A stretch of 64,000 nt of DNA from Salinispirillum sp. LH 10-3-1 (lineage in GTDB: Bacteria; Pseudomonadota; Gammaproteobacteria; Pseudomonadales; Natronospirillaceae). The number at the start of each line of letters is the position of its first letter. Positions within the stretch are counted from its first letter, which is position 1. Of the stretch, positions 1,013 through 38,677 are shown piece by piece. A program made the position numbers and the translations under genes. The stretch lies in assembly GCF_030643825.1 (NCBI RefSeq), contig NZ_CP101717.1, positions 3,183,673-3,247,672 on the forward strand, read 5' to 3'. A model generated the notes under the pieces. It was not told where the DNA came from. It saw nothing but the letters and a program-made list of their open reading frames with translations, and searched no databases.

Positions 1013-1789
1013 TCAATGCAGGCCGATACGCCGAAAATGCGTTGGTACCCGCCCGTGCACATTGCGCATGGCTTTGGTCAGCGCACTTTGGTTGGCGAAA
1101 CCGACCTGCAAGGCAATGTCAGCAATGGGTTGATGAGTATGCTGCAGCAGCCAAATCGCGGTATTCAAGCGCACATGTAAGACGTATTGGTAGGGTGTTT
1201 TGCCGGTTAACTGGCGGAAGCTTTGTTGGAACTGACTGACACTCAGGCAGCACAAAGCGGCCATATCAGCAACGCGTACCGGATCGGATAACCGCTGATG
1301 CAGCCAAGCGTCCAAACGCGCCAGCTGGATGCGGCGCGAAGGTTCATTACGCAATGAATTCGTTTCGGCCATGCGATGGAAGAGCCCATGCACCAATGTA
1401 CCGGTTACATGGCCTGCCAGCCAAGGGTCGCCCGGGTGCTGCGCAATTTCTTCGCCCATCGCACGCAACATGCGCACGAAGCCCAAATCGAGTTCAATGT
1501 ATCGTGGCCGATCAAACAATTGGTCAATCACTTGCGGATGAATAAAAGACATGGCGCTGGGCTGAGGGTCAATGTTGACGATCAACATGCGGTTAGCACC
1601 CACCCCTTGAAAGGCATGATTGTATTCCGACGGCACCAAACACCCCGTCCACGGAGTGACGTCTTTGCCGCCCTCGCCTTCGAGGTCAAATTCCGCTCGC
1701 CCCTGCAAGCCAAACACCAATTGGTGGTGGGCGTGGTGATGGGCGTGTCCGTCACTGGACAGCTGTTGCAGTTGGGTTTCCGTGGTCAT
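1013..1789 (-). CDS. AraC-family transcriptional regulator
   Basis: This 258-aa protein has an N-terminal His-rich cupin-like sensor part (several His within residues 15-25) and a C-terminal AraC double helix-turn-helix. The HTH is seen in VADMAALCCLSVSQFQQSFR and in IADIALQVGFANQSALTKAM near residues 210-235. Such proteins usually activate neighbouring catabolic genes when they bind a small effector. It lies 117 bp upstream of putA on the same strand. Because that PutA has no DNA-binding domain, control of proline use is a reasonable inference, not something shown by the sequence. The start at 1789 has only a weak ribosome site, but no better internal start is visible. Confidence 0.85.
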   Translation of the reverse strand: MTTETQLQQLSSDGHAHHHAHHQLVFGLQGRAEFDLEGEGGKDVTPWTGCLVPSEYNHAFQGVGANRMLIVNIDPQPSAMSFIHPQVIDQLFDRPRYIELDLGFVRMLRAMGEEIAQHPGDPWLAGHVTGTLVHGLFHRMAETNSLRNEPSRRIQLARLDAWLHQRLSDPVRVADMAALCCLSVSQFQQSFRQLTGKTPYQYVLHVRLNTAIWLLQHTHQPIADIALQVGFANQSALTKAMRNVHGRVPTHFRRIGLH

Positions 1790-1853
1790 AACCGACGTTT
1801 CACTACATTGAATTTGCTATAGTCCGATTTTAGAGCATAACACAGCAAGTGAA

Positions 1854-2135
1854 ATGAACAAAAAGCAACCAAAAGATAATAAAAATAAAGAATGCTGGGC
1901 GGTTTATGTCTTGCGTTGCGCCGACACCAGTCTCTACACCGGCGTGACCACCGACGTCACACGCCGGGTGCGTCAGCATAATGGCGAGTTGGTCGGCGGC
2001 GCCCGCTATACGCGAGCGCGCCGCCCAGTCTGTGTTGTGTATGAAGAGACTTGGGGCAGTCGCGCCGAGGCGTGCCGACGCGAAGCCGAAATCAAAGCAC
2101 TGACCCGCGCCGACAAATTAGCCTTATTTACTTAA
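1854..2135 (+). CDS. GIY-YIG nuclease-fold protein (UPF0213/YhbQ-like)
   Basis: This is a 93-aa single-domain protein. The GIY-YIG signature appears as VYVLRC followed by YTGVTTDVTRRVRQHN, with conserved Arg (RRVRQH) and Glu (CRREAEIKAL) typical of the YhbQ/UPF0213 group. Members have the nuclease fold of UvrC and homing enzymes. E. coli YhbQ is linked to DNA damage responses, but a physiological substrate is not firmly established. The N-terminus is Lys/Asn-rich. The gene is divergent from the AraC regulator and ends 6 bp before the stop of the convergent chemoreceptor gene. Confidence 0.85.
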   Translation: MNKKQPKDNKNKECWAVYVLRCADTSLYTGVTTDVTRRVRQHNGELVGGARYTRARRPVCVVYEETWGSRAEACRREAEIKALTRADKLALFT

Positions 2136-2141
2136 GCCAGC

Positions 2142-3710
2142 TCAACGGCCGAAGCGGTCAATCAGGGACACCTGCTCACGCGCCATCTTCTCGATACGAT
2201 CTACCTGAGCCGCCCCTTCGCCCATGTCGGCATGCGTCGATTCGGCGCCTTCGGTGATGCGCATGGTCGACGTGGAGATTTCATTCGCGGCAATTTCTTG
2301 TTGCGATGCTGCGACAGAAATATTTTCCGTACCTTTCTCGATATCGCCGATGGCCAACAGAATCTGATCCATCTGATCGCCGGCCTGGTTAATCACCTCA
2401 ACCCCTTCCGCAGCCTCTTTATGGCTGCGCTCAATGGCAGTGACGGCACGCTGTGTGGCTTCGGCTAAGTGATTCAACAAGCCGCTGATGGACACCGTAC
2501 TGTCCTGCGTGCGCTGCGCCAGATTACGTACTTCGTCAGCAACCACAGCAAAGCCACGGCCCTGCTCGCCTGCCCGTGCCGCTTCGATGGCGGCGTTCAA
2601 GGCCAGCAAGTTGGTCTGCTCAGCAATGGCACCAATGCTGTCTACCGCACTCTTGATGCTGCCGGAGTCAGTCGCCAACTGACTGATTACCGAGTTCGCT
2701 TGGTTCACCTCTTCGTTAAGCGCCTGTACCTTGTTCACTGCATTGCGCAAGGCGGCATTACTGTCACGCACCTGCTGACTCACTTCCACCGTGCGCGTCG
2801 CCGTTAAACGGGTATTTTCCGCCACCTCACGAATGGTGGCCGACATTTCATGCACCGCCGAGGCGACAGTATCGGTGTCATTGCGTTGTTGCCCTACACG
2901 ATCCGCTACTTGGTGAATACTGGCACTGGTCAAATGAGTCGCGTTGCTGAGATCGCCAGCCAAACTGCCCAACCGCCCCAAAACCGTACGCAAGTGATGC
3001 TGTTGCATCAGCACCGCCAAGCGGCTGCGTCCCAGCGGGCCGATGTCGCCGGTATAAACATACTGTGCCACCGCATCATCCACCACCTCGGTAGCATGGC
3101 CCATATGGCGCTGCAACAAGCGCGGGAAAAGTACGGTGCCCAGCAGCGGCGCAGCCAGCAATAGAATCGCCTGACCCCCCAAACCAACATTGCCAAAGCT
3201 GACCAGGTTAAGCAGCACAATTAATAGCACACCGAGCGCCAAACCAAACCCGGCAAAAGGCAAGTAAGCGCGCACATAATCGCTCATTGTGAAGGGCTTC
3301 TTGCCCGCGTTCAGCCGCCCATAAAGCAGCTCTGCACGCGCTTGCGCGTCGGCTTCGGTTTTGACTCGCACCGACTCATAACCAACGATTTTGTCCTGTT
3401 CCCACACGGGTACAACATAAGCGTCAACCCAATAGTGATCACCGTTCTTGCACCGGTTTTTCACCAAGCCCATCCAAGGCTTACCCGATTGAATGCGGTC
3501 CCACATCATTTTGAAGCCCGCACCTGGCATATCAGGATGGCGCAAAATATTGTGCGCTTCACCGATCAATTCTTCACGGCTGTAACCACTGATCGATACA
3601 AAGGTATCATTCACGTGCGTAATGCGGCTTTTGGGGTCGGTGGCGGAAATGATTTGCTCGCCGGGTTTCAGCTTCACTTCACGCTGGGTTACAGTACCGG
3701 TCTTGCGCAT
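2142..3710 (-). CDS. PAS-domain methyl-accepting chemotaxis protein (Aer-like)
   Basis: This 522-aa energy- or redox-type chemoreceptor has an N-terminal PAS domain (about residues 20-120, with [20 protein letters not shown] and [12 protein letters not shown]). Two hydrophobic segments follow near residues 150-205. The long helical cytoplasmic domain contains the signaling hairpin tip ([20 protein letters not shown], then [15 protein letters not shown]). There is no large periplasmic sensor, so the signal is probably sensed inside the cell through PAS, as in Aer. It should act through CheW and CheA; no che genes are in this window. A conserved palindrome lies 127 bp upstream at 3837-3848. Confidence 0.92.
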
Positions 3711-4025
3711 AGCTCATCTCCTTAGTTGACTAGGATTATCTATCGGCATCTGACTCCAAAACTGAACAGTCAAACGCATCTCTGCCAAATCACTGAGGCG
3801 GCAGTGAATCCTATCGGCTAATCTGCCAAAACGGTATGACCTAGGTCAAGTCGGCTTTCTATCCAGTCTTTCAGACAATTCGTCATACCATAATCCGCCC
3901 TACACATACGAAAGCACGGCCGAGCGATAAAAAATGTTGTTCCTACGACTACTCTCAGGTACATCTAAGGCAGCTATGACGCATTGCCACGCGCCGCACT
4001 CATTAAAACAACGACAGGAACGACC
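3711..4025. other. Intergenic region with FNR/DNR-like palindrome at 3837-3848
   Basis: This 315-bp gap separates the divergent chemoreceptor and TIGR02647 genes. The clearest element is the perfect 12-bp palindrome TGACCTAGGTCA at 3837-3848, flanked as TATGACCTAGGTCAAG. It is close to the FNR/ANR/DNR-type site TTGAN-4-TCAA in its TTGAC/GTCAA variant, with one half-site base missing. Control by oxygen or nitric oxide would suit an Aer-like receptor, but this is inference. No small gene was recognised. Confidence 0.3.
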
Positions 4026-4262
4026 ATGCCCTTTTCTCAGGAACACCTCGCCGAACTGAATCTACTGACGCTGTTTGAATCCCAATCGCAGCAAGCAGGC
4101 ATCAAGGTACACAGCCATGAAGCCGCCCCTGAAACGGTGGCCGCCGCTGAACGGCTGCATAAGAAGGGACTGATCACCCAAGCGGATGGTGGTTATCTGA
4201 CCAGCCTCGGCAGTGAAACCGTGGAATACACCCAAAAGCTGTTAGGTATTTTATCCAACTGA
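4026..4262 (+). CDS. TIGR02647 family small protein
   Basis: The 78-aa product begins MPFSQEHLAELNLL and contains GIKVHS, AAAERLHKKGLITQADGGYLT and LGSETVEYTQ, the pattern of the gammaproteobacterial TIGR02647 family, often annotated as a putative DNA-binding protein of unknown role. I chose the ATG at 4026 over the upstream one at 3984 because an AGGAA ribosome site lies about 7 bases before it and the family starts with this MPF motif. The next gene follows 73 bp downstream. Confidence 0.8.
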   Translation: MPFSQEHLAELNLLTLFESQSQQAGIKVHSHEAAPETVAAAERLHKKGLITQADGGYLTSLGSETVEYTQKLLGILSN

Positions 4263-4335
4263 TGCACTCTCAGCGGTTCGAGAACGTCAGAAATTGCGGT
4301 AGAATGCGCGCCTTGTTGACGGTAAAGAGACACCC

Positions 4336-4650
4336 ATGAGCGAAGCGCGCAAAGACCTATCGGATGACGAACTCACTGCAGTATTGAACACTGAAACCGC
4401 ACAAATCAACTGGCTGGAGCTGCAACCTTATTTCGCTCGCGGCCAAGTGATTGTGGTGCACAGAGACCTAGACCTGATAGTGGTTGGGCGTGAGTTGATT
4501 CGCGACAACACCGCACAGTTCCAACGTTGGACAGAAGCAGAGCAAGTGGCTGGGGTCAGCAACGTGCAGGCACAAAGCTGGTACGACCAGAAAAAAGACT
4601 TGTGGGCATTGGTCATTGCGCCTTGGGTGCTGGTGCAGGATCGAGCGTAG
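4336..4650 (+). CDS. DUF2288 family protein
   Basis: This 104-aa soluble protein carries the DUF2288 pattern: LNTETAQINWLELQPYFARGQVIVV, then DLDLIVVGRELIRDNTAQ and a C-terminal WYDQKKDLWALVIAPWVLVQD. The function of the family is unknown. There is no signal peptide or membrane segment. A small spaced ribosome site (GTAAAGAGACACCC) precedes the ATG. A REP-like hairpin begins 6 bases after the stop and may serve as transcription terminator or mRNA end. Confidence 0.8.
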   Translation: MSEARKDLSDDELTAVLNTETAQINWLELQPYFARGQVIVVHRDLDLIVVGRELIRDNTAQFQRWTEAEQVAGVSNVQAQSWYDQKKDLWALVIAPWVLVQDRA

Positions 4651-4656
4651 GTTGGG

Positions 4657-4708
4657 GTAGGAGCACGGCCCTCCGCGCAAAGATTCGGCCAGAAGGCGAG
4701 CCTCCTAC
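4657..4708. repeat. REP-like 52-bp palindromic repeat, copy 1
   Basis: This 52-nt imperfect hairpin begins GTAGGAGCACGGCCCTCCGC and ends with CTCCTAC. A second copy of identical length and about 80% identity lies at 57620-57671. The outer stem GTAGGAG/CTCCTAC is perfect in both. The middle stem (GCCCTCTG/CAGAGGGC) is perfect in copy 2 and partly degraded here. Such elements sit after genes as mRNA-stabilising or terminating hairpins and usually spread with REP-associated transposases; none is in this window. Confidence 0.75.
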
Positions 4709-4768
4709 GTTAAGCCGCGGTGGAACTTTGCACGGCGCACATTGTCTCACTGTTGAACCCAACAAGAG

Positions 4769-5251
4769 ATGATCATCGTGCCAGCCACTCTTTCCCTAAC
4801 AAAATTACTCTTCTTCATCAGCACCTTATTCCTGTTGCTTGCCCTCCCGGCCATCAGTGCAGCGGTTGAGCCCGTCTACACCGGTTTTCGCAGCCAATAC
4901 GCCATTCAAGGCTACGACACCGTGGCGTATTTTACGCAAAACCAAGCCGTGCGTGGCGACACCGAGTTCCAAAGTGAATGGCAAGACACCCTTTGGCTAT
5001 TCAGCAGTGCCAAACACAAGGCGTTGTTTGATGCCAACCCGGAAGCCTATGCGCCGCAATACGGTGGCTACTGCGCGTACGCCATGGCCGATGGCAAGGC
5101 CGTACGGGTAGACCCCACAGCGTTCAGTGTGATTGACGATAAGCTGTATCTGAATTTCAGTCGACGTATCCAGAGCCGCTGGGAGGCTGATTCGTCGTCC
5201 TTCATTGAGCGCGCAAACCCTCATTGGATGACACTTCTAAGTGGGCAATAA
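4769..5251 (+). CDS. Exported YHS-domain protein
   Basis: The 160-aa protein starts with a signal peptide (hydrophobic LLFFISTLFLLLALPAISA, likely cleavage after about residue 30). A YHS-type domain follows: IQGYDTVAYF, then LWLFSSAKHKALFDANPEAYAPQYGGYCAYAMADG. YHS domains are found in copper P-type ATPases and oxygenases and are thought to bind metal. Exported single-domain versions are common in marine proteobacteria and have no firm role. The gene stands alone between a REP element and the helicase gene. Confidence 0.85.
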   Translation: MIIVPATLSLTKLLFFISTLFLLLALPAISAAVEPVYTGFRSQYAIQGYDTVAYFTQNQAVRGDTEFQSEWQDTLWLFSSAKHKALFDANPEAYAPQYGGYCAYAMADGKAVRVDPTAFSVIDDKLYLNFSRRIQSRWEADSSSFIERANPHWMTLLSGQ

Positions 5252-5348
5252 GCAACACACGATGACCGCTGGCTAAACCCAGGGTCAGGTGCAATGGATA
5301 CAGTGATGCTTTATCCTTCGCCCTTCTCTCCATGGGTAACGTGCAGTA

Positions 5349-7550
5349 ATGTCAGGCTTCACCCCAGAACAGGCCCGCGTCATAGCGGCGCGGCAGCAAC
5401 ACAGCCGCGTGATTGCCGTGGCCGGTTCAGGCAAAACCTCGACCCTGATTGGGCAAACCGAAGCCTTGCTCGCCGACGGCGTAACGCCTCGGCGCTTACT
5501 GGTGCTGATGTACAACCGCAGTGCGCAACAGGATTTCTTGCAGCGCTTACGCGCCCGCAACCGCGGCCCTCTGCCCGATGTGCGCACCTTCCATTCGCTG
5601 GGTCTGAGCATTTATCGCACGTTGATTCAACGCGGCTTGTTGCCGGCGTTTCAGGGCGACATTCTCAGCGACGGCGAGTTAGAGCCGCGCATTTGGCGTT
5701 GGCTGCAAGAGCTGGCCACCACCGGCGAGCAAGCGCAAGATATTCTAAACAACAAGCGCAAATGGGTAGAGCCCACGCTGACCTTTATTGAGCGCGTCAA
5801 AGCCGGGCTGGAACCACCGGCCGTGGTGTTCAAACAATTGGGCATGCCTGGTAATGCACGCTTGTTGATAAAAACCTTTGAACGCCTAGAGCAGTGGCGC
5901 AAGGCACAACAACGCATTACCTTTGCCGACATGCTGTACGACCCCGTGGCGCTGTTCAGCCAACGCTCCGACGTCGCGGCGCAGTTTGCCAACCACCTCG
6001 ACCACATTGTGGTGGACGAGTTTCAAGACATTAACGCCATTCAACACCTGTTGTTGGAAACCCTGTCGGGCGAGCGTGCCACCGTGACCGTGGTCGGCGA
6101 CCCTGATCAGACCATTTACGAATTTCGCGGTTCAGACCCTAGCTTTATGCTGCACCAGTTTCCCGAACGTTACCCCGACAGTCAGGTGCATACGCTCAGC
6201 CATACCTTTCGTTACGGGCCCCAAGTCGCACTGGCAGCCAACCATCTAATTCATCACAATCAAGGCCGTCAACCGGTGCTGACCTGTGCGCACGACAGCA
6301 CACCAGACACGGCGCTGCATCTGCACCGCGTGAGCGATGAGACCAGTGTCCTCGTACAACAAATTACCCAGCTGCGTACTCAGCGCCCGCTGGCCGACAT
6401 CGCCGTGTTGCATCGCTTGTGGGCGCAAGCGGCACGATTGGAATTGCAGCTGCTCACGCTCAACATAGCCTTTCAATTGGAAACCGAACGCGGCGTGTTG
6501 CAACGGCACGAGCTACAACCCTTGCTGCTGTTACTCAGCATCGCCAGCGGCCGCTTCGTAAAGCTCAACAAGGCCGCCCGAACGCAAGCCTGGATGACAC
6601 TGCTGACCCAACCGTACCCGAAGATCCAGCGCGATATTCTGAAGCAAATGGCGACTCGATTGGGGTCTGCCACGTCGGGGCTGGGCAAGCATTTTATGGC
6701 CCAGTTGCCACCCAAATGCTCACACTGGCAGCAAGAGCAATTGGCCTTACGCGGCAGTGTCATTCAATTAGCGGAGCAGCCCACAACCACAGCCAAGCAA
6801 CTGGTCAGCGCGTGGTTAAACAATACGGATTACTTGAACGCACTTGCCAGCGGTGCTTTTTCCGCGCAACAAAGTGACGAGCAGAAAGAAACAGTCAAAG
6901 CCTTTTTAAGCTTTTTACAGCAGAACGATCGACCGGCCGCCGATGCCGATGGGTGGCTACAGGAGATCCAAAAACCTCAGTCATCGCAGGGCGCAAAAGG
7001 GTTAACGCTGACCAGCATCCATAAAGCCAAAGGCCGCGAATGGCCAGTGGTGTTGATTCCCGGACTGAATCAACACTTCTACCCCTATCGGCCCGATGGC
7101 GACCTGCGCTTACCGGTAGACGAAGAAAGCGAGCGCCGTTTGCTCTATGTAGCGCTGACCCGCGGCCAACAGGAGGTGCACCTGTTTACACCAGCACAAG
7201 GCGATGAGCGCAGTGCTTTTGTGGCGGAAATGGAAATACCCTTAAGCATTGCTTTAGGCAAAGCGTTGCGCGACCCTGCAACGCCGCCTACGGGTGAACT
7301 GGCATTGCCGACGGGTGTCACTCCGTTGGCCCAGCAATACGTGCAACGCATGGGCGCACCCCTTACCTTGACAGGTCGAGCACTGCCCAGTCGAGCAACG
7401 CCTAACCAGATACGCCGCGTAAGGCACAACTATTTTGGTGTTGGCAGCCTACTGCGGGAGGAAGGCTCACAAATTCATATTCGTTTCGACGATGGTAAAA
7501 CGCGTGTGTTTGAGCGGGATATTGTCATCGGCATGCTCGAAGAATTGTAA
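5349..7550 (+). CDS. UvrD/PcrA-type ATP-dependent DNA helicase (superfamily 1A)
   Basis: This 733-aa protein contains the full SF1A helicase set: Walker A AVAGSGKTSTL near residue 25, motif Ic RTFHSLG, Walker B VVDEFQDIN near 223, motif III VVGDPDQTIYEFRGSD, motif IV HTFRYGPQV, motif V LTSIHKAKGREWPVVLIPG near 560, and motif VI RRLLYVALTRGQQEVHLF. The N-terminal FTPEQARVIA is the adenine-binding Q-motif region. It is close to UvrD/Rep size but divergent in the C-terminal third, where a Tudor-like KOW/SH3 tail (RHNYFGVGSLLREEGSQIHI) resembles that of PcrA/UvrD. A role in DNA repair or replication restart is inferred from the family. Confidence 0.9.
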   Translation: MSGFTPEQARVIAARQQHSRVIAVAGSGKTSTLIGQTEALLADGVTPRRLLVLMYNRSAQQDFLQRLRARNRGPLPDVRTFHSLGLSIYRTLIQRGLLPAFQGDILSDGELEPRIWRWLQELATTGEQAQDILNNKRKWVEPTLTFIERVKAGLEPPAVVFKQLGMPGNARLLIKTFERLEQWRKAQQRITFADMLYDPVALFSQRSDVAAQFANHLDHIVVDEFQDINAIQHLLLETLSGERATVTVVGDPDQTIYEFRGSDPSFMLHQFPERYPDSQVHTLSHTFRYGPQVALAANHLIHHNQGRQPVLTCAHDSTPDTALHLHRVSDETSVLVQQITQLRTQRPLADIAVLHRLWAQAARLELQLLTLNIAFQLETERGVLQRHELQPLLLLLSIASGRFVKLNKAARTQAWMTLLTQPYPKIQRDILKQMATRLGSATSGLGKHFMAQLPPKCSHWQQEQLALRGSVIQLAEQPTTTAKQLVSAWLNNTDYLNALASGAFSAQQSDEQKETVKAFLSFLQQNDRPAADADGWLQEIQKPQSSQGAKGLTLTSIHKAKGREWPVVLIPGLNQHFYPYRPDGDLRLPVDEESERRLLYVALTRGQQEVHLFTPAQGDERSAFVAEMEIPLSIALGKALRDPATPPTGELALPTGVTPLAQQYVQRMGAPLTLTGRALPSRATPNQIRRVRHNYFGVGSLLREEGSQIHIRFDDGKTRVFERDIVIGMLEEL

Positions 7551-7568
7551 CGCCTGCCACCCGACAGC

Positions 7569-7862
7569 CTAGTCTTTCGAGGCCTGCTCTTTCGCTACCT
7601 GCTCGGCCGCTCGCGCTTCATCATCACGCTTTCGACCGTAGAACAAGCGCGCAGCGGTCATGGCAATCATCAACACAAACAAGCCCATTACGCGCATCCA
7701 GTCGATTTCACCAAAGCCCAAATAGACGATGCCCATACAGGCAATAAAAACCACAAAGGTCCAAGAATAGGCAGTGAAACGGTTATAGTGCCACCAGCGT
7801 GTCCATAGCGCCGGGGTGGCGATCAGGATAAGCAACAGGAAGCCGTAACTGAAGATGATCAT
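7569..7862 (-). CDS. Small three-helix membrane protein, unknown function
   Basis: This 97-aa protein has three predicted membrane helices (about residues 3-19, 32-50 and 58-74), followed by a charged, Ala/Glu/Lys-rich cytoplasmic tail after YGRKRDDEARA. I recognise no family. It is convergent with the helicase gene, whose stop lies 18 bp away. The divergent desaturase gene lies 243 bp upstream; that spacer holds an imperfect palindrome AGGTAACAAATTTACCT (7897-7913) which could be an operator for either gene. Confidence 0.65.
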   Translation of the reverse strand: MIIFSYGFLLLILIATPALWTRWWHYNRFTAYSWTFVVFIACMGIVYLGFGEIDWMRVMGLFVLMIAMTAARLFYGRKRDDEARAAEQVAKEQASKD

Positions 7863-8105
7863 GGTAATACTCGGTCGGTCTGTGACGGGAACGCAAAGGT
7901 AACAAATTTACCTGTGCCGGAGAAGCGCACGAAGGCCTGCTATCAAGTCGGTACAGCCCCCTAGCAGCAAAGGGCTGCAGGGCAGTGCGTAACTCTGATG
8001 TTACTATACCGTGGTCGGAATGGGGGTTGGGTCATAAGATTGTCATGGTTTTTCTGCTCCCGATCAGTAGAATCATAGCCCTGACACAGGATAGAAAAAC
8101 CTAAT

Positions 8106-9119
8106 ATGACCAACACTGATTATCGCCAGATCGCCAAGCAAGTACGCGCCTATGCGCAAGCTCGCACCGGCCGCGCCTGGCTAGAAGTGATATTCACTGT
8201 CGTACCCTTCGTGACAATCTTTGCCGCCGCCGCTGCCTTGTGGGGTCACTACCCCATCATCAGCATCCTGCTGACCGTACCCGCCGCCTTCTTTATGGTA
8301 CGCATCTTTCTGGTGCAGCATGACTTGGGCCATGGTTCATTTTTCCGTCATAAAGGGCTAAACAAGTGGGTAGGCAAGGCGCTGGGCGCCACCACCGGCA
8401 TTCCTTACAGCTATTGGAAGCGCACACACGCCATGCACCACGCCACCACAGGCAACCTCGACAAACGCGGTGCCGGTGATGTAACAACCTGGACGGTCGA
8501 AGAATACCGCAATGCCGGCTTCTGGAGTCGCCTCGGCTACCGTTTTTATCGCCATCCGCTGGTCATCATCGTATTAGGCCCAGCCTTCTTGCTGCTTAAA
8601 ATGCGTGTGCCCTTTGGCCACCCCACTCCCTTCAAAGAAAACTGGCGCAGCATACTCAGCAACAATGTAGTGCTGGCGGCGATTGTTATTTTATTAGGTA
8701 CCTTTCTTGGTTTCGGTTTCGTGGCCGCCGTTTACTGCTTAACCCTGTACCTCGCCATGATGATTGGCATTTGGTTGTTTTATGTACAGCACCAATTTGA
8801 AGATGCCTACTGGGCACCACAAGAGACTTGGAACTACCACCAAGCGGCCATTGAAGGCAGCAGCCAGTTAGCGATGCCGGGGTTCATGAACTGGTTAACC
8901 GCCAATATCGGCTTGCACCACATCCATCATCTTGACAGTAAAGTACCTTTTTACCGCCTGAAAGAAGTGGTGCGCAGCATTCCGGACCTCGAAGCGGTAA
9001 ACAAGATTTCTTGGCTGCGTACCCCTCGTTTGCTGACGTTGACTTTGTACGATGAGGCCTGTCAGCGCATGGTCAGCTTTCGCGAGGCACGCCGGAACAG
9101 CTCTACCGAGAATGCATGA
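8106..9119 (+). CDS. Membrane fatty acid desaturase
   Basis: The 337-aa integral membrane diiron desaturase shows the three His boxes: HDLGH (72-76), HAMHH (108-112) and HHIHH (271-275). An extra His (VQHQFED, 229) is typical of acyl-lipid desaturases. Four to six membrane helices surround them. It should introduce a double bond into membrane acyl chains using O2 and reduced ferredoxin or a similar donor; the regiospecificity cannot be read from the sequence. The gene is monocistronic and followed by a strong intrinsic terminator. Confidence 0.9.
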   Translation: MTNTDYRQIAKQVRAYAQARTGRAWLEVIFTVVPFVTIFAAAAALWGHYPIISILLTVPAAFFMVRIFLVQHDLGHGSFFRHKGLNKWVGKALGATTGIPYSYWKRTHAMHHATTGNLDKRGAGDVTTWTVEEYRNAGFWSRLGYRFYRHPLVIIVLGPAFLLLKMRVPFGHPTPFKENWRSILSNNVVLAAIVILLGTFLGFGFVAAVYCLTLYLAMMIGIWLFYVQHQFEDAYWAPQETWNYHQAAIEGSSQLAMPGFMNWLTANIGLHHIHHLDSKVPFYRLKEVVRSIPDLEAVNKISWLRTPRLLTLTLYDEACQRMVSFREARRNSSTENA

Positions 9120-33335: not shown

Positions 33336-33599
33336 TCAATAGTGATAGCGACAGGAAATGATCGTAACCGCGTGATCATCCACCGCGTAAACTAAGCGGT
33401 TTGTATCATCTACACGGCGCGACCAAAAACCCGCTAAGTTTTCCTTCAACGGCTCTGGCTTACCAATACCTTCAAAAGGTGAACGTTTAACGTCGTTGAT
33501 CAGCTTGTTGATGCGTTTGAGCGTTTTTTTGTCTTGGGTTTGCCAGTACAGATAATCGCCCCATGATTCGTCAGTCCATGACAGTAAACGACTACTCAT
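33336..33599 (-). CDS. yoeB: YoeB-family toxin (ribosome-dependent mRNA endonuclease)
   Basis: This 87-aa toxin has the YoeB pattern LLSWTDESWGDYLYWQTQDKK, LINDVKRSPFEGIGKPEPLK and the C-terminal RVDDTNRLVYAV...ISCRYHY, which include the catalytic Glu, Arg and terminal His. YoeB cleaves mRNA at the ribosomal A site. Its start overlaps the antitoxin gene by 8 nt, standard for this module. Confidence 0.95.
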   Translation of the reverse strand: MSSRLLSWTDESWGDYLYWQTQDKKTLKRINKLINDVKRSPFEGIGKPEPLKENLAGFWSRRVDDTNRLVYAVDDHAVTIISCRYHY

Positions 33600-33846
33600 C
33601 CATCAAGTCTCTTGGCGTGACTTTCCCAGCTTTAAATTGCTCAATGGAGCGATTCAAATGCTCGGCGTTGGCGGGTGAGCGCAGTAAGTGTACCGTCTCC
33701 ATCAGACTGTTGTAGTAGTCCAGCGACATCACTACCGCGTCTTCTGAATCACGGCGGGTAATCACTGCTGTATCCGCGTCATTGACCACGGAATCCAACA
33801 CCGCTTTTAAGCCATTTCTGGCTTCTGTAAACGACACAATTTTCAT
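33592..33846 (-). CDS. yefM: YefM-family antitoxin (Phd/YefM)
   Basis: The 84-aa protein begins MKIVSFTEARNGLKAVLDSVVNDAD, the DNA-binding Phd/YefM N-terminus, and has a toxin-wrapping C-terminal tail (LLRSPANAEHLNRSIEQF). It neutralises YoeB and represses the operon. The start at 33846 fits the family; upstream codons to 33915 do not. Confidence 0.95.
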   Translation of the reverse strand: MKIVSFTEARNGLKAVLDSVVNDADTAVITRRDSEDAVVMSLDYYNSLMETVHLLRSPANAEHLNRSIEQFKAGKVTPRDLMDE

Positions 33847-34062
33847 AGAGCCCCACCTGTACGCTTTATGGGACAAGTATAGACCCGCCGCCCTTGCATG
33901 TACAACAAGACGCACAGCTTTTCTGCGCGACTTTGATGCCGCCCGGCGCCGTTTCTGGGTCGTATACCGTAATCCGACCTTGATCTTTCCGAGCCGTCAA
34001 GGCGGGTCAACGCCGCTGACCACAATGTTGTGCGCCAAAATGCTTGATGTACTGGATCACTA

Positions 34063-34760
34063 GGGAACCTCTGAACTTATCACCTTACAATCCACTACCA
34101 TCAGCAACAATGGTTTTAGAAATTACAATGTCACCCAATAATGCCAAAAGCGGCACTTTTCTTGACCAGATTGGCCATTTCATAGCCTTTTAGGCGCAGC
34201 AACCCCTACGCCAACCAACTTTTCTTCATCATCATTAAACTCACCAAGCCTGCCATAGGCAGCAGGCGACTGGTATTCCTCGTTGCCGCGCAGCAACTCG
34301 TCTGAAGGCTCAAGGCCATGGGCGTTGGCGGCTGTTATTTCACGACTATGGATCACACCCGTGGTCACATCTACTCCGATGTGCATCTTCATGCCAAAGT
34401 GCCTCTCATTGCATTTCAGGGTCTAGTGCCACCTCTTTGTTCTTGGTCGAGCTGGAGCGCTGATGATAATGGCGTCCATGAAAGTACCTTCCTGCAGCAG
34501 CATGCCTCAATCTTCAAGGTGTTTGTTGACGGTGTCGAAAATCACTTTGCTTAAATTATGCTTCTCTAAGAACCGACGAAGATTAAGGAAGGTGGTTTCA
34601 TCAGGCAAACGACCCATCTCGGCGAGGAACTTTTCGCGGCGTGCGGGACGGCGTGTGCTTTGATACCCTGCGTCACTGAAACTAAGCTGATCCATTGCTC
34701 TTCTTGATGTAATGATGGCTGATAACTTAGCGGAAACCAGTGATTAATTCAGAGGTCCCC
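34063..34760 (-). mobile_element. Internally deleted IS5-family insertion sequence remnant
   Basis: Terminal inverted repeats GGGAACCTCTGAACTTATCA (34063 on) and GGGGACCTCTGAATTAATCA (inward from 34760, minus strand) agree at 19 of 22 positions. About 700 bp remain, against roughly 1.1-1.2 kb for an intact member of this group. The flanking tetranucleotides (ACTA and AATG) do not match, so no target duplication is visible and the locus has been rearranged. The right end supplies the last codons of the regulator gene at 34744. Confidence 0.8.
34170..34695 (-). pseudogene. IS5-family transposase pseudogene
   Basis: The N-terminal piece MDQLSFSDAGYQSTRRPARR...EKFLAEMG joins directly to RLPDETTFLNLRRFLEKHNL, skipping roughly 70 residues present in full transposases of this group. 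A frameshift follows, then GMKMHIGVDVTTGVIHSREITAANAH. The catalytic C-terminal part (YREK region) is missing. It cannot encode an active DDE transposase. Confidence 0.8.
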
Positions 34761-35598
34761 AATGCCCCATATATTTCTTATGCAACACAGACATCATCTG
34801 CTTTACCGTACTGTCAAAAGCTTCGGGTAGCTCATTGAACAACCCAAGCAAATACTCCATACGCCTGTGCTGAATTAGTCTTACTTTGAAGAAGTCAGTA
34901 CCATAAGTCAGCCAGAGGGGATTAATCTTGGTTGCCGCCCATAGGCGCAATGCCATCAAAACACTGAACTGGGGCCCATCATTCTCGTGCTCGTAGGCAC
35001 GCCAGGTCCTACTCTCCACGCCAAGCAGCTCAGCCATATCGTCCGTAGTGAGATCCAGAAGGTTGCGTAGTTCTCGCAGACGGCCTGCCACCATGGCGTA
35101 GTAGCCTTGTTGTGAGGGAGTCTCGAGCAACTCAATAGACGAACCGAAGCACAGTTCTTCTGGCTGTATGGATCTAGTTCTTTCAAGAGTGCCACTGATC
35201 AACAGTACCAAGCTGTGGAAGTCACTGTCCGAGCAAAGCCCTGCCAAGCTCTGCAGGACAACAGCTTCTTTCCGACGCGGAATATCCTTAAACAGATTCT
35301 GATAGCAACCGCCGACAAAAAGATACTGATAGGGCACACCTGTCGCCAGCATGAAGGTGGCCATTGTCTTCATACAGGGGTAGCTACCCTCTTCGTACCT
35401 TTGGTATTGCCGCAGACAGACAGACATTTTCTGTGCCATTGCCAACTGGCTTAGTTTCAACTGAATTCGACAACGCCTCAGATTCAACGCGAAGCACTCC
35501 CGCTCAGTCGCTTCCAGGCGTTCGAAGTCTAGAATTTGGGGGGTGAATGCAGAGACAATCTGCTCCCGAACAGGGGCAAGGACAATAGATTCCGTCAT
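34744..35598 (-). CDS. Transcriptional regulator with two XRE-type helix-turn-helix domains
   Basis: This 284-aa protein carries one HTH at about residues 39-95 (LNLRRCRIQLKLSQLAMAQKM, then YEEGSYPCMKTMATFMLATG) and a second at about 172-232 (RLRELRNLLDLTTDDMAELLG, TWRAYEHENDGPQFSVL). It is divergent from the small-peptide operon across 343 bp and is the probable controller. The last residues (GPLN and stop) come from the terminal repeat of the IS remnant, so the original C-terminus may have been replaced. AAGGA lies 9 bases before the ATG at 35598. Confidence 0.75.
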   Translation of the reverse strand: MTESIVLAPVREQIVSAFTPQILDFERLEATERECFALNLRRCRIQLKLSQLAMAQKMSVCLRQYQRYEEGSYPCMKTMATFMLATGVPYQYLFVGGCYQNLFKDIPRRKEAVVLQSLAGLCSDSDFHSLVLLISGTLERTRSIQPEELCFGSSIELLETPSQQGYYAMVAGRLRELRNLLDLTTDDMAELLGVESRTWRAYEHENDGPQFSVLMALRLWAATKINPLWLTYGTDFFKVRLIQHRRMEYLLGLFNELPEAFDSTVKQMMSVLHKKYMGHWGPLN

Positions 35599-35941
35599 AG
35601 AGCATATTCCTTTAAATTACAAGAAAGCTTATCCACTGGCCGTCCATAGTCCCCTGTTTAATAGGCAACCAAACAACAATTAGGCACAGTACTACCTAGA
35701 TCCTATACCTATACTAGAGCTCAAACGATCAAAAGCAACCAATTCCTAACTCACACCGCGACCAAAGTCACAAACAATATAATTCTGTTGATGTCAATAC
35801 GTGCATGTGCGCGATTGAACGTGAAAAACTGCGACCAGTTCTGCTTAGTCCAATGCCGTTTAATCATTAGAATGGTTCCGTTGACTGGATTATCCAGTCA
35901 ATTTTTGACAACTACAAACCGACAATTAATGAGGAATAATT
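35599..35941. other. AT-rich divergent promoter region of the regulator and peptide operon
   Basis: No gene was seen in these 343 bp, apart from the control elements listed separately. A TTGACA hexamer lies at 35905-35910, but a convincing -10 at the right spacing was not found, so the peptide operon's start site is undefined. The base composition is clearly more AT-rich than the core genes on either side of the island. Confidence 0.5.
35881..35906 (+). promoter_or_regulatory. Palindrome before the peptide gene (operator or attenuator)
   Basis: TTGACTGG-ATTAT-CCAGTCAA is a perfect 8-bp inverted repeat (35881-35901) followed by five T. It lies 36-61 bp upstream of the peptide start. It can be read as an operator for the adjacent double-HTH regulator or, on the RNA level, as an intrinsic terminator that would attenuate the operon. 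Confidence 0.6.
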
Positions 35942-36010
35942 ATGAGTAAAATTCAGAAAAAAGTTAAACGACTGACAAAACGATTAGACCATACGGTTGC
36001 TGATTGGTAA
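35942..36010 (+). CDS. 22-residue cationic peptide, candidate RiPP precursor
   Basis: This tiny gene encodes a 22-aa peptide beginning MSKIQKKVKRLTKRL and ending DHTVADW. Seven Lys/Arg lie within the first 14 residues, spaced so that Ile4, Val8, Leu11 and Leu15 form a hydrophobic helix face. The last seven residues hold His, two Asp and a terminal Trp. The ribosome site GAGGA is at an ideal 6-base spacing, which strongly supports translation. A stable hairpin follows before the next gene. With an HExxH enzyme and an exporter downstream it resembles a precursor peptide with a basic leader and a short C-terminal core. A leaderless antimicrobial or a signal peptide are alternatives. Confidence 0.65.
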   Translation: MSKIQKKVKRLTKRLDHTVADW

Positions 36011-36036
36011 ATAAGGATCAACTACCTTTTTTGGTA

Positions 36037-36058
36037 ACGGGCTGTTTGTACAGCCCGT
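36037..36058 (+). terminator. Stable hairpin between peptide gene and operon body
   Basis: ACGGGCTGT-TTGT-ACAGCCCGT is a perfect 9-bp stem with a 4-nt loop, 26 bp after the peptide stop. No long T-run follows, so it may act as a partial attenuator or mRNA-stabilising end, giving more peptide than enzyme transcript, a common arrangement in peptide natural-product operons. Confidence 0.55.
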
Positions 36059-36101
36059 AATACTTTAGATATAAATATTTTTTATAAAGGACTCCGAGTT
36101 A

Positions 36102-36596
36102 ATGATAAAAAATCGCATAATGATGATACCTCAAGAGGACGTAAACGCAGAATTGATAGCAACATCAGTAATTTTGAGGGATTTGCTCCCAGATCCTTCC
36201 CTTGGACCAATGGAAAGAATTGAAAGGTTAGCAAGGGTCATTGAAGATTCAGTTCAGATCGGTCAATACCACCGCACAGCACGAATTAAACTAAAGGAAA
36301 TAAATGACAGGCTAGACGATCTCGTACCACATGAATATATGACAGCTATTGAAAAAATTAAACATCTAGTTTCTTTGGCTGATCAGCTAGTTCCAGAGGA
36401 AACTGAAAGGCTTTGTCAAAAGTTACAGTATATTGGCGACAGACGACTTAGAGATAATGGCTCTGTCGCTTCTCCTGATTGGTCACCAGAGCTAATGAAT
36501 CATGAAGTTGCTTTGGGAATAATGAGGACCAGTGGCAAAACTCCGAATCAAATGACGTTTGTCAAAGAAGACATCCATACTAAGGGAGATGGCTAA
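36102..36596 (+). CDS. Unknown helical protein of the peptide operon
   Basis: This 164-aa, mostly helical soluble protein contains charged repeats such as LGPMERIERLARVIEDSV and LVPEETERLCQKLQYIGDRR. I recognise no family, and there is no signal peptide, Cys cluster or radical-SAM motif. AAGGA lies 11 bases before the ATG at 36102; a second Met pair lies at residues 7-8. The next gene starts one base after its stop. It could be a peptide-binding partner of the HExxH enzyme, but that is a guess from position. Confidence 0.6.
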   Translation: MIKNRIMMIPQEDVNAELIATSVILRDLLPDPSLGPMERIERLARVIEDSVQIGQYHRTARIKLKEINDRLDDLVPHEYMTAIEKIKHLVSLADQLVPEETERLCQKLQYIGDRRLRDNGSVASPDWSPELMNHEVALGIMRTSGKTPNQMTFVKEDIHTKGDG

Positions 36597-36597
36597 A

Positions 36598-37446
36598 ATG
36601 GAGCTTAGCAAAAGTGAGCTTGAAAAGGCTTGTGGATCTTTAACAGGGCTAAAAAAGAGCATATTGGCTTGGGAGTTGGTCAATAACAAAAGACTGACTG
36701 CACCAGAGAAAGACATGTTTTCAGCGCACACGATAAAGAATTCAAAAATAGAAATAATCAAAGGTAATCTTCCAGGAAAGTACGAGGGCGAAATCCCCAT
36801 ATCTGGGCATTCCATATTAAACAACAGGGATTCAGGAAGCATAGAATTCTATAAAAAAATAGAAGAAGCAATTAATTTCTTAGGTGATAGATTCGGAACA
36901 ACACACCACAACTTATAAAGCCATTTATCTGTTATAATTCCATTGGAAAGCACTGGCAATGCTAGAGCTATAACATCTTTAAGTGTACCAAACTTTCCTT
37001 TTTCATGCTTTGTATCCAAGAATGCATTGTTCCATCTAGCCCCAGACATAATAAATCATGATGGTGGTATCTACTATCTTGCGGAGAATCTGTTTCATGA
37101 AATGACTCACAACCAGGTAAACATTGACCTGCTAGAGTCAGACATACTTGCCGAAGATTACGATAGCGCCACCTATCCAGGGATCCAAATTGAATGGCGC
37201 CACACACCAAATGGCAATCAACAGACGTGGCAAATTGACAGGGCAATTCATGCCTTATGGGTGTATTCGTACTTGTCAGTCTTCAGGTCAGCCTGTAAAT
37301 TGATAAAGCCAGAATTATTTCCCAGATCAATGATTGAAGATGCTAAAAGCAAGGCATATTTTCTTCGCAGAGAGCTATTAAAAAAAAGAAACTTCTTAAC
37401 TACCGAAGGAATTGCCTACATTGAAAAAGCAATTGAATATACTTAA
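36598..37446 (+). pseudogene. HExxH-motif putative peptide hydroxylase, interrupted by one in-frame TAA
   Basis: The reading frame from ATG 36598 is open for 106 codons, meets TAA at 36916-36918 and continues in the same frame to 37446 (282 positions in all). The second part contains SVIIPLESTGNARAITSLSV, the metal motif HEMTH at 167-171 within LAENLFHEMTHNQVN, and the downstream block WQIDRAIHALWVYSYLSVF. Together these match the HExxH domain family (TIGR04267), now associated with 2-oxoglutarate-dependent hydroxylation of RiPP peptides. No start codon with a ribosome site precedes the second part, so this is one gene with a nonsense codon, not two genes. It may be inactive, or the stop may be a sequencing error or be read through. 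Confidence 0.75.
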
Positions 37447-38677
37447 CCTAAAGTATAGCGTCCAAATGCTATGGTTTCCTTGTATATTTGGCTTGATACT
37501 TTTACAAGGCATTGTCAGCTTTTTCATAGTCATGCACATAAGTTTAGAAACTGACGCTAGAAATTTTCTGCCTCTTGTATCGACCCTTGCCATAGCTCCA
37601 GGAATATACTTCAGCTTTTTCTCGGGAAAGCTGATAGATAAATTAGGAGAGCGGCATGTTGTGTTGTCATTTTTGTCAATTTACTTAATTGCGGCTTTTT
37701 ATGTTACCCATCTTGGTTCCCGTAGCGAAATAACACTTATTGCTTTACTTGCGTTTGTTTTTATTCAGTCAATAGTCAGCAGCACTCTTGTCATCGCCAT
37801 CACTTCGATGATCCCAAAACTATTCAGCAAGGGCAAGCTTCGTTTGACGTATGCTGCCTACTCCTTTATAAGCGGCAGCGCAATGACATTTTCGCCAGCC
37901 ATAGCTGGCATTTTTTATGGCAGCATTGAGCTTAAGGAAACGTTCACCACTCTATTTTTATTCACTTTATTATTCTTGTTATTTACTATCCTGTATATGC
38001 CTAAAGCCAATAACGAGAGAAAAAAATATTCTACAAAATTACTGTACTATTTTAACGAACTAATGACCAGTGGCCTGTACCGGCTGTCATTTTACTATCT
38101 GGTCTTAAACACGTTAAATGGCGTTACCATTATATTAATCCCCCTGTATATTATTAAGCTAATGAATAATGATCATATTGCTCTTGCACTAGTTAGTAGC
38201 GCCATAGCTTTTTCGAGCCTGATCGGCATAGCTTTCTCGGCTAAATCGTTTCCTGTTAGCAACCACAAAGTCATAGCCTTAACAACAATAGCGGGCGCCA
38301 TACTGGGAAGAATATTTTTGCCTTTGGCCAGTGAGGTAATAATTATATGTTTATTGGTTGCTTTTCGGAGCATCGCTCTGGAAGTGGGAAATATGGCCAA
38401 TCAAATGGAGTGGATCGAGCATACAAATACCGATAATCGGGCAGGAATGCTGGGTTTAAGGCGGCTTTTTGGGCAAGGATTATTCCCCATAGCGTCTCTC
38501 GCCTTATCATTAACACTTGTTGTTGGGGGTTATGACCTTGAGCTGGGTACTATTAGCAAGATATTCATAGTATCAGGCGTGTTAGAGCTATGCGTTTCTA
38601 TATACTTTTTAAAGGTGATCAAAGATTCAGGTACTTATGAAGCCAGCACAAGCGTTGATGAACGGGAGGCAGCCTGA
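37421..38677 (+). CDS. Major facilitator superfamily transporter, probable exporter of the peptide operon
   Basis: This 418-aa protein has about 12 membrane helices and the MFS loop 2-3 motif in GKLIDKLGERHVVLSF. The TTG at 37421 has GAAGGA 10 bases upstream and overlaps the HExxH gene by 26 nt; ATG 37466 and TTG 37412 are alternatives. Base composition and codon use are AT-rich, like the rest of the island and unlike the core genes. The gene remains intact although the upstream enzyme gene is broken. Export of, or immunity to, the mature peptide is the likely role. Confidence 0.8.
   Translation: MKKQLNILNLKYSVQMLWFPCIFGLILLQGIVSFFIVMHISLETDARNFLPLVSTLAIAPGIYFSFFSGKLIDKLGERHVVLSFLSIYLIAAFYVTHLGSRSEITLIALLAFVFIQSIVSSTLVIAITSMIPKLFSKGKLRLTYAAYSFISGSAMTFSPAIAGIFYGSIELKETFTTLFLFTLLFLLFTILYMPKANNERKKYSTKLLYYFNELMTSGLYRLSFYYLVLNTLNGVTIILIPLYIIKLMNNDHIALALVSSAIAFSSLIGIAFSAKSFPVSNHKVIALTTIAGAILGRIFLPLASEVIIICLLVAFRSIALEVGNMANQMEWIEHTNTDNRAGMLGLRRLFGQGLFPIASLALSLTLVVGGYDLELGTISKIFIVSGVLELCVSIYFLKVIKDSGTYEASTSVDEREAA

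Follow-up and report, generated by a model that had tools for sequence, protein, structure and literature searches.

Whether an open reading frame (ORF) of only 22 amino acids (aa) can encode the precursor of a modified peptide is the question raised by a locus of Salinispirillum sp. LH 10-3-1, which lies in a 64,000-nucleotide stretch of its genome (contig NZ_CP101717.1, positions 3,183,673 to 3,247,672; hereafter the window). Here, a regulator gene is divergent from genes for the 22-aa peptide, a 164-aa protein, a protein with an HExxH motif and an exporter of the major facilitator superfamily (MFS), and the initial annotation had proposed an undescribed system resembling those for ribosomally synthesized and post-translationally modified peptides (RiPPs). 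We consider it likely that these genes form a cassette that arrived by lateral transfer and belongs to an unnamed RiPP-like family, in which the enzyme hydroxylates the core of the peptide and the product is exported where an MFS protein is present.

We scanned genome contigs for the enzyme only, using an alignment of the window enzyme with its relatives from streptomycete plasmids, and obtained 18 loci. In 16 of the 18, a core with the consensus LT[RKQ]RLDH, usually followed by SVPD, is encoded 5' of the HExxH enzyme gene on the same strand; the exceptions are one locus with an intact enzyme and the motif not nearby (L038) and one with a truncated enzyme (L047). RiPP systems are recognized by a conserved precursor adjoining an enzyme gene, which is the arrangement of these 16 loci, and we infer that the enzyme acts on the peptide. 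The core-carrying loci span Streptomycetaceae, Nocardiopsis, Paenibacillus, Brevibacillus and a metagenome-assembled genome (MAG) of Rhodobacteraceae.

Besides the window core LTKRLDHTVADW, we found ALTQRLDHVMPD in Paenibacillus, VLTKRLDHSVPD in Rhodobacteraceae, RLTRRLDHSVPE in Nocardiopsis and KLTQRLDHVPP in Brevibacillus. On Streptomyces plasmids, the peptide of L022 has the core LTRRLDHSVPDG, L025 has two tandem copies, and L023 and L024 have the variant LTRRLNHSVPDG, which in both adjoins a damaged HExxH gene (5823-6537). The peptides of Streptomyces and Kitasatospora mostly contain two LTRRLDHSVPDG units spaced 20-22 residues apart. The initial annotation had suggested that D and H near the C-terminus of the window peptide (DHTVADW) matter, and this fits, as the DH pair lies within the conserved core; both residues are candidate sites of modification.

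The pattern L[TSNQ][RKQ][RK][LIMV][DNE]H matched once in the six frames of the window. In 207 kb from 15 related loci, namely those among the 18 already known to hold the motif, it matched 26 times, as opposed to no match in 4.15 Mb of dinucleotide shuffles, and a chance ORF was rejected on this count. Moreover, among 31 distinct streptomycete cores, 1504 single-base codon differences were synonymous and 155 non-synonymous (pN/pS 0.043, a crude pairwise count without a tree). In streptomycetes, selection thus acts on the amino acid sequence that the ORF encodes. In total, we conclude from these comparisons that the 22-aa ORF represents a genuine gene and is conserved, and translation of the short core peptide is strongly supported by conservation and selection; the ribosome site that had been proposed for it (GAGGA) is also present.

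The peptide gene lies 91 nt 5' of the 164-aa gene, and the strong hairpin between them, in a region that folds at z -3.43, would suit an attenuator, in which the peptide would serve as a leader to regulate the genes 3' of it rather than as a substrate of the enzyme. However, this hairpin has no U-tract, and no terminator-like site was found. Moreover, the core is shared across phyla, occurs in tandem in many streptomycetes, is joined in frame with the 164-aa protein in one locus (L049, see below) and is under strong purifying selection in streptomycetes. We find an attenuator highly improbable, and rejected it because the core is conserved across phyla at the amino acid level and the hairpin lacks a U-tract. 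The hairpin region had no Rfam match at the gathering score.

The HExxH gene of the window contains an in-frame TAA codon that the initial annotation had overlooked: the HEMTH motif and the kinship to such enzymes stood, but the gene is not intact. When 12 relatives other than the window were combined into a profile, it aligned unbroken across the TAA (read-through residues 22-280, E 2e-50 for a search space of one sequence). Therefore, this is one gene with one nonsense codon. The downstream half shares all 30 invariant columns of a 13-row enzyme alignment that includes it; H185, E186 and H189 are invariant in 13/13 rows, the window among them, W218-R219, W230 and D233-R234-H237 are invariant as well, and none of 12 homologues checked has an internal stop. 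The window enzyme gene is thus well preserved outside the TAA, and with this nonsense codon the copy was probably disabled recently; alternatively, the TAA may be a sequencing error.

The fold was assigned through a model of the intact homologue from the Rhodobacteraceae MAG (L031; AlphaFold2 (AF2), pLDDT 80.4, pTM 0.80) and not through the window protein. The best match in PDB was the HExxH domain of ChlB (8s5f, chain 8s5f_F; Foldseek E 5.7e-8, Z 18.6, 3.2 Å over 242 residues), followed by SjiH (22ob, Z 17.1); the next match had Z 7.7. ChlB was found by the fold search alone, and the enzyme profile matched nothing below E 0.26 among PDB sequences. From this model, the enzyme is predicted to have the fold of the alpha-ketoglutarate (alpha-KG)-HExxH peptide hydroxylases. 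An HExxH motif would also suit a common zinc metalloprotease with the peptide as its cleavage substrate; further down among the fold matches are zincins such as leukotriene A4 hydrolase, and the relative PflC is reported to have proteolytic activity without leader (available part of PMC12636437). Yet the zincins reach Z scores of about 6 only, as against 18.6 for the ChlB HExxH domain and 17.1 for SjiH, and the invariant residues extend beyond HExxH to W218-R219, W230 and D233-R234-H237. A plain metalloprotease is very unlikely in our assessment, and was rejected because the ChlB-type fold scores far above the zincins.

According to the parts of two reports available to us, hydroxylation by enzymes of the alpha-KG-HExxH family occurs at the side chains of Asp, His, Phe, Gln or Pro (PMC12636437, PMC13060819), PflC and PosC additionally cleave the peptide backbone (PMC12636437), and the transformations of the family 'at present cannot be predicted' (PMC13060819). 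The conserved D, H and P of the core fit this hydroxylation chemistry and are candidate target residues.

The 164-aa protein had been described as unknown, and we found no Pfam or NCBIfam match for it at E<=0.1; its homologues gave weak matches to these libraries (best E 0.02), far under the curated cut-offs. As the initial annotation had suggested, we searched other genomes for loci that combine the peptide, the 164-aa protein and an HExxH gene, and the three were found together in the Rhodobacteraceae MAG (55% identity to the window 164-aa protein), a Paenibacillus MAG (L032, 43%), Nocardiopsis (L033, 47%) and a Streptomycetaceae genome (L082), and in fused form in L049. Genome-wide, there is one strong 164-aa match each in the genomes of the window, L031, L032 and L033, and none in seven streptomycete genomes; the best weak matches in three of these seven (G761, G762 and G764; E 0.08-0.7) coincide by coordinates with precursor peptides. 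Among 390 genomes of the order of the window genome, 40 match at E<=0.1, its own and 39 weak ones (best E 4e-4); 19 of the 39 were examined as loci, and they are treated as chance matches because the family profile gives E 1.2 at best. In tblastn against plasmids, the window protein and its L033 homologue had no match at E<=1, and the family profile found nothing below E 0.08 among PDB sequences.

To relate this protein to the peptides, we compared a profile of the four 164-aa proteins, built without the peptides, with 5393 translated cluster segments. Six extra matches passed the inclusion threshold (E 5e-4 to 6e-3); every one is a two-core peptide, and their cores align in register to two successive repeats of the 164-aa protein. 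For three two-core peptides, shuffled versions never reached the real score (0/2000 each); for the window, Paenibacillus and Rhodobacteraceae peptides, they did so in 1/2000 cases each. The strongest single fact for a kinship of core and 164-aa protein is the fusion in L049, in which a single ORF (140 aa from the second ATG) combines NLTQRLDHMVPDPE near the N-terminus with repeats of the 164-aa family, with an HExxH gene directly 3'. L049 is a viral contig with genes for portal, head protease, major head, tail terminator and tape-measure proteins; the fused ORF and the HExxH gene (5896-7213) are an insert between head and tail genes with a G+C content of 49.7% as opposed to 68-69% for the contig. 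The prophage proteins of L049 had no match when compared with phages. Altogether, we read the 164-aa protein as a repeat-type, precursor-like protein of an unnamed family.

A further possibility, tentative and on balance rather unlikely, is that this helical-repeat family is the main substrate and that its repeats (...RLDELVPDE...) and their free relatives (LTRRLDHSVPDG) are hydroxylated by the dedicated alpha-KG-HExxH enzyme. If so, the genes would be a mobile post-translational hydroxylation module in which peptides and repeat protein share one core, and a RiPP class, perhaps with an intracellular role, whose precursors would span everything from a 22-aa peptide with a single core to a structured repeat protein.

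Outside streptomycetes, the cassette is rare: the window genome was the only match among 145 relatives and among 369 genomes of its class, and the starting genome was the only one among 295 genomes of the family of L031 and among 246 of the order of L032. Within Streptomycetaceae, the enzyme profile matched 22 of 200 genomes at 1e-5; among 20 loci looked at (of 24 matches), 14 have the motif and L074 a variant, while the five without it are L061, from the same genome as L038, and L077-L080, with partial or distant enzyme matches. Some genomes are common to this survey and the 18-locus scan. In tblastn against plasmids, the C-terminal half of the window enzyme matched four Streptomyces plasmids (36-38% identity, E 4e-14 to 8e-18), with eight weaker records below these best four, and the MFS protein had no match at 1e-5; a single-sequence scan of genome contigs with the window enzyme half gave none. 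In a tree of 16 enzymes, 2/13 inner branches are well supported and the window branch is long, and therefore no history was drawn. In total, these comparisons show that the core peptide and the divergent enzyme with the predicted alpha-KG-HExxH fold recur across three phyla and in a prophage.

None of three HExxH loci that are less closely related and belong to lanthipeptide or YcaO clusters (L026, L027 and L028) has the motif. In the first of these, from Nonomuraea, an HExxH-domain protein (5125-6939) is followed by a LanC-like frame (7584-8912), which is labelled LanC by reading and is unannotated in the plasmid table.

The partner genes vary. In the window and the Rhodobacteraceae MAG, the order is peptide, 164-aa protein, HExxH enzyme and MFS protein; it is peptide, HExxH, MFS and 164-aa in the Paenibacillus MAG, and peptide, 2-oxoglutarate (2OG)-oxygenase-like protein, HExxH, 164-aa and MFS in Nocardiopsis. 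The L082 genes are ordered peptide, 2OG-like, 164-aa, HExxH, another oxygenase-like protein and M13 peptidase, without an MFS-like frame in 9.9 kb. The streptomycete cassette consists of peptide, HExxH enzyme and a fusion of tetratricopeptide repeats (TPR) with a 2OG domain, with nothing more conserved over 14 loci (neighbours of L034, from Kitasatospora, and L041), and in Brevibacillus we recognized neither an MFS nor a 164-aa protein alongside peptide and HExxH enzyme. MFS homologues adjoin the cluster in L031 and L033, and L032 has an MFS protein as well; neither MFS protein nor M13 peptidase is conserved in the streptomycete cassettes, four of which are plasmid-borne.

The 2OG assignments are tentative. 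For the TPR-2OG protein of L022, the match to 2OG-FeII_Oxy_3 (E 0.015) does not reach the cut-off. Its C-terminal half is 34% identical (E 2e-46) to the L033 protein, which takes its name from this likeness, as Pfam gave nothing for it at E<=0.01; the two oxygenase-like proteins of L082, also without a Pfam match at E<=0.01, are named by reading. The L082 genes are part of an extended cluster (1419-7395, minus strand) that includes a TPR protein. Divergent from the Rhodobacteraceae cluster are genes for a LuxR-type receptor and an autoinducer synthase (L031, 4317-5842; PF03472, PF00765), suggesting quorum control, and a lysine-2,3-aminomutase-type radical S-adenosylmethionine (SAM) gene lies 5' of the Brevibacillus peptide (L030, 4826-6184; PF12544 E 1e-48).

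Several observations weigh against a modified and exported peptide. The window enzyme copy is probably inactive through the in-frame TAA, those of the Streptomyces plasmids L023 and L024, which lack residues 27-95 and have a changed frame, are probably inactive, too, and L047 holds an enzyme fragment; thus, enzyme decay is common and not confined to the window. Against TIGR04267, with its NCBIfam cut-off of 40, the C-terminal half of the window enzyme scores 18.4 bits (E 0.0016), L022 23.9 and L025 24.3, and we treat the enzyme as a divergent relative of this family, not a member by the curated rule. As to the 164-aa protein, the reverse search, with a core profile against 164-aa proteins, reached significance for the fused L049 only, which leaves moderate support for a common descent of core and repeats, and the predicted structure is poor (AF2, pLDDT 48.9) and unfit for fold search. 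Finally, the streptomycete cassette lacks a conserved exporter or peptidase, and none was recognized beside the Brevibacillus pair. Therefore, a secreted natural product does not suit every locus.

These cassettes of peptide, enzyme and TPR-2OG protein, the Brevibacillus pair and L082 would instead suit an intracellular module on mobile elements that hydroxylates the helical-repeat protein and its peptide relatives in regulation, stress or defence, with no secreted natural product. Also in its favour are the low-G+C insert with the fused form in the prophage, the four plasmid-borne streptomycete copies and a weak match of the TPR-2OG protein to a CRISPR-associated 2OG model (E 2e-4). However, an MFS gene is adjacent in four of the five non-phage 164-aa clusters, the exception being L082, and the enzyme and the 164-aa protein matched nothing in a defence library at E<=0.1. 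We judge such a module unlikely, and return to the RiPP-like cassette.

Systems of this general kind are already known. ChlB, a fused radical SAM/alpha-KG-HExxH protein, is reported to beta-hydroxylate Asp and His (available part of PMC12636437), the two residues of the DH pair conserved in the cassette core. Its HExxH domain (PDB 8s5f; TIGR04267, IPR026337) resembles the cassette enzyme as the best structural match of the L031 homologue, in the HExxH motif and in the RiPP-type context. By contrast, the enzyme of the cassette is not fused to a radical SAM domain, the identity in the structural alignment is 14%, and the cassette enzyme is below the NCBIfam cut-off. The pfl/pos clusters of Pseudomonas share a small precursor, an alpha-KG-HExxH enzyme (PflC/PosC) and transporters; as far as the available part of PMC12636437 describes them, their precursor has an NHLP-type leader and consecutive Gln with a C-terminal ARMD, and they also encode an MNIO-nitroreductase and a GNAT protein; these features are absent from the window peptide, which ends in DHTVADW, and from the Pfam matches of the window cluster, where MNIO is not listed. 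Similarly, the nitrilobacillins (pes cluster) share a precursor, an alpha-KG-HExxH hydroxylase acting on Pro, and a transporter and peptidases; their own features in the available part of PMC13060819, an R(V/T)DN C-terminus, MNIO, an asparagine-synthetase-like enzyme and M16 peptidases, are likewise absent from the window peptide and the Pfam matches of its cluster. In plasmid pMchErm55 of Mycobacteroides chelonae (L028), an HExxH enzyme of the same superfamily adjoins an MFS transporter, but a YcaO enzyme is present and the LTRRLDH peptide absent; its row of small ORF, YcaO, HExxH and MFS genes (4002-7810) is a different RiPP-like cluster.

No peptide or 164-aa protein reached the cut-off of a Pfam or NCBIfam model, and none of the six core strings tried occurred in a full-text search of 5.39 million papers, which left out most subscription papers, so that a published description may have been missed. 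Within the reach of these searches, the precursor family, its fused or repeat-type relative and the gene set are new.

We propose that the amphipathic LTxRL part of the peptide is recognized by the alpha-KG/Fe(II) HExxH enzyme, which would hydroxylate residues in or near DHxxPD, most likely Asp, His or Pro, as judged from its relatives. The 164-aa protein, as a larger repeat-type relative of the precursor, could either be modified as a second substrate or act as a scaffold on which the enzyme meets the core; the second oxygenase-like protein, and the M13 peptidase in one locus, may add maturation, and the MFS protein, where present, would export the product. A hydroxylated Asp-His pair would be a natural metal ligand, by analogy with siderophores. 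If correct, the cassette would be a RiPP family in which a precursor needs no more than 22 aa, cores occur in tandem and a repeat protein resembles the precursor, and it would extend the known range of alpha-KG-HExxH enzymes. The joint recurrence, in carriers that range from streptomycetes to Paenibacillus, the Rhodobacteraceae MAG and a prophage, of a precursor motif, a second, unnamed protein family and a divergent oxidative enzyme makes the chemistry directly testable.

Table 1. Features of the cassette and its surroundings, in window positions
Feature	Position	Strand	Remarks
YoeB/YefM-type toxin-antitoxin pair	33336-33915		PF06769 E 6e-42, PF02604 E 1e-22
Decayed insertion sequence	34062-34762		imperfect inverted repeats GGGAACCTCTGAACTTATCAC / GGGGACCTCTGAATTAATCAC
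DDE transposase fragment	34180-34392		PF01609 E 0.006, below cut-off
Second fragment of insertion sequence	34507-34695		no Pfam match
Regulator, two helix-turn-helix (HTH) domains, divergent	34744..35598	-	284 aa; HTH_3 at 40-92, HTH_19 at 173-227
Perfect 21-bp palindrome	35881..35901	.	TTGACTGGATTATCCAGTCAA; between regulator and peptide gene; likely operator
Ribosome site of peptide gene	35931-35935	+	GAGGA, read in sequence
Precursor-like peptide	35942..36010	+	22 aa, MSKIQKKVKRLTKRLDHTVADW; conserved core
RNA hairpin	36037..36058	+	9 bp, perfect; between peptide and 164-aa gene; no U-tract after
Precursor-like repeat protein	36102..36596	+	164 aa; homologues adjoin peptide and enzyme elsewhere
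Predicted alpha-KG-HExxH-type enzyme gene	36589..37446	+	start ATG 36589; interrupted by in-frame TAA (36916-36918)
HEMTH motif	37096-37110	+	downstream half of enzyme gene
MFS exporter	37412..38677	+	up to 421 aa; MFS_1 E 5.6e-18; alternative start: second TTG, 37430

The layout that had been read from the window was borne out for the remaining genes (Table 1): the divergent regulator has two HTH domains, the exporter matches MFS_1, and the operon is AT-rich, with a G+C content of 33% for the peptide gene, 40% for the 164-aa gene, 38% for the enzyme gene and 40% for the MFS gene against about 55% in the flanks, which fits import of the cassette. The regulator had no blastp match at E<=0.05 in 22 compared loci. 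The palindrome has 10-bp arms that are 100% complementary and 1 nt apart, and it was the sole match at up to three mismatches in the window, where alone it was sought (0 expected); it is the likely operator. The cassette is adjoined by the YoeB/YefM-type toxin-antitoxin pair, and the right inverted repeat of the decayed insertion sequence overlaps the last codons of the regulator gene.

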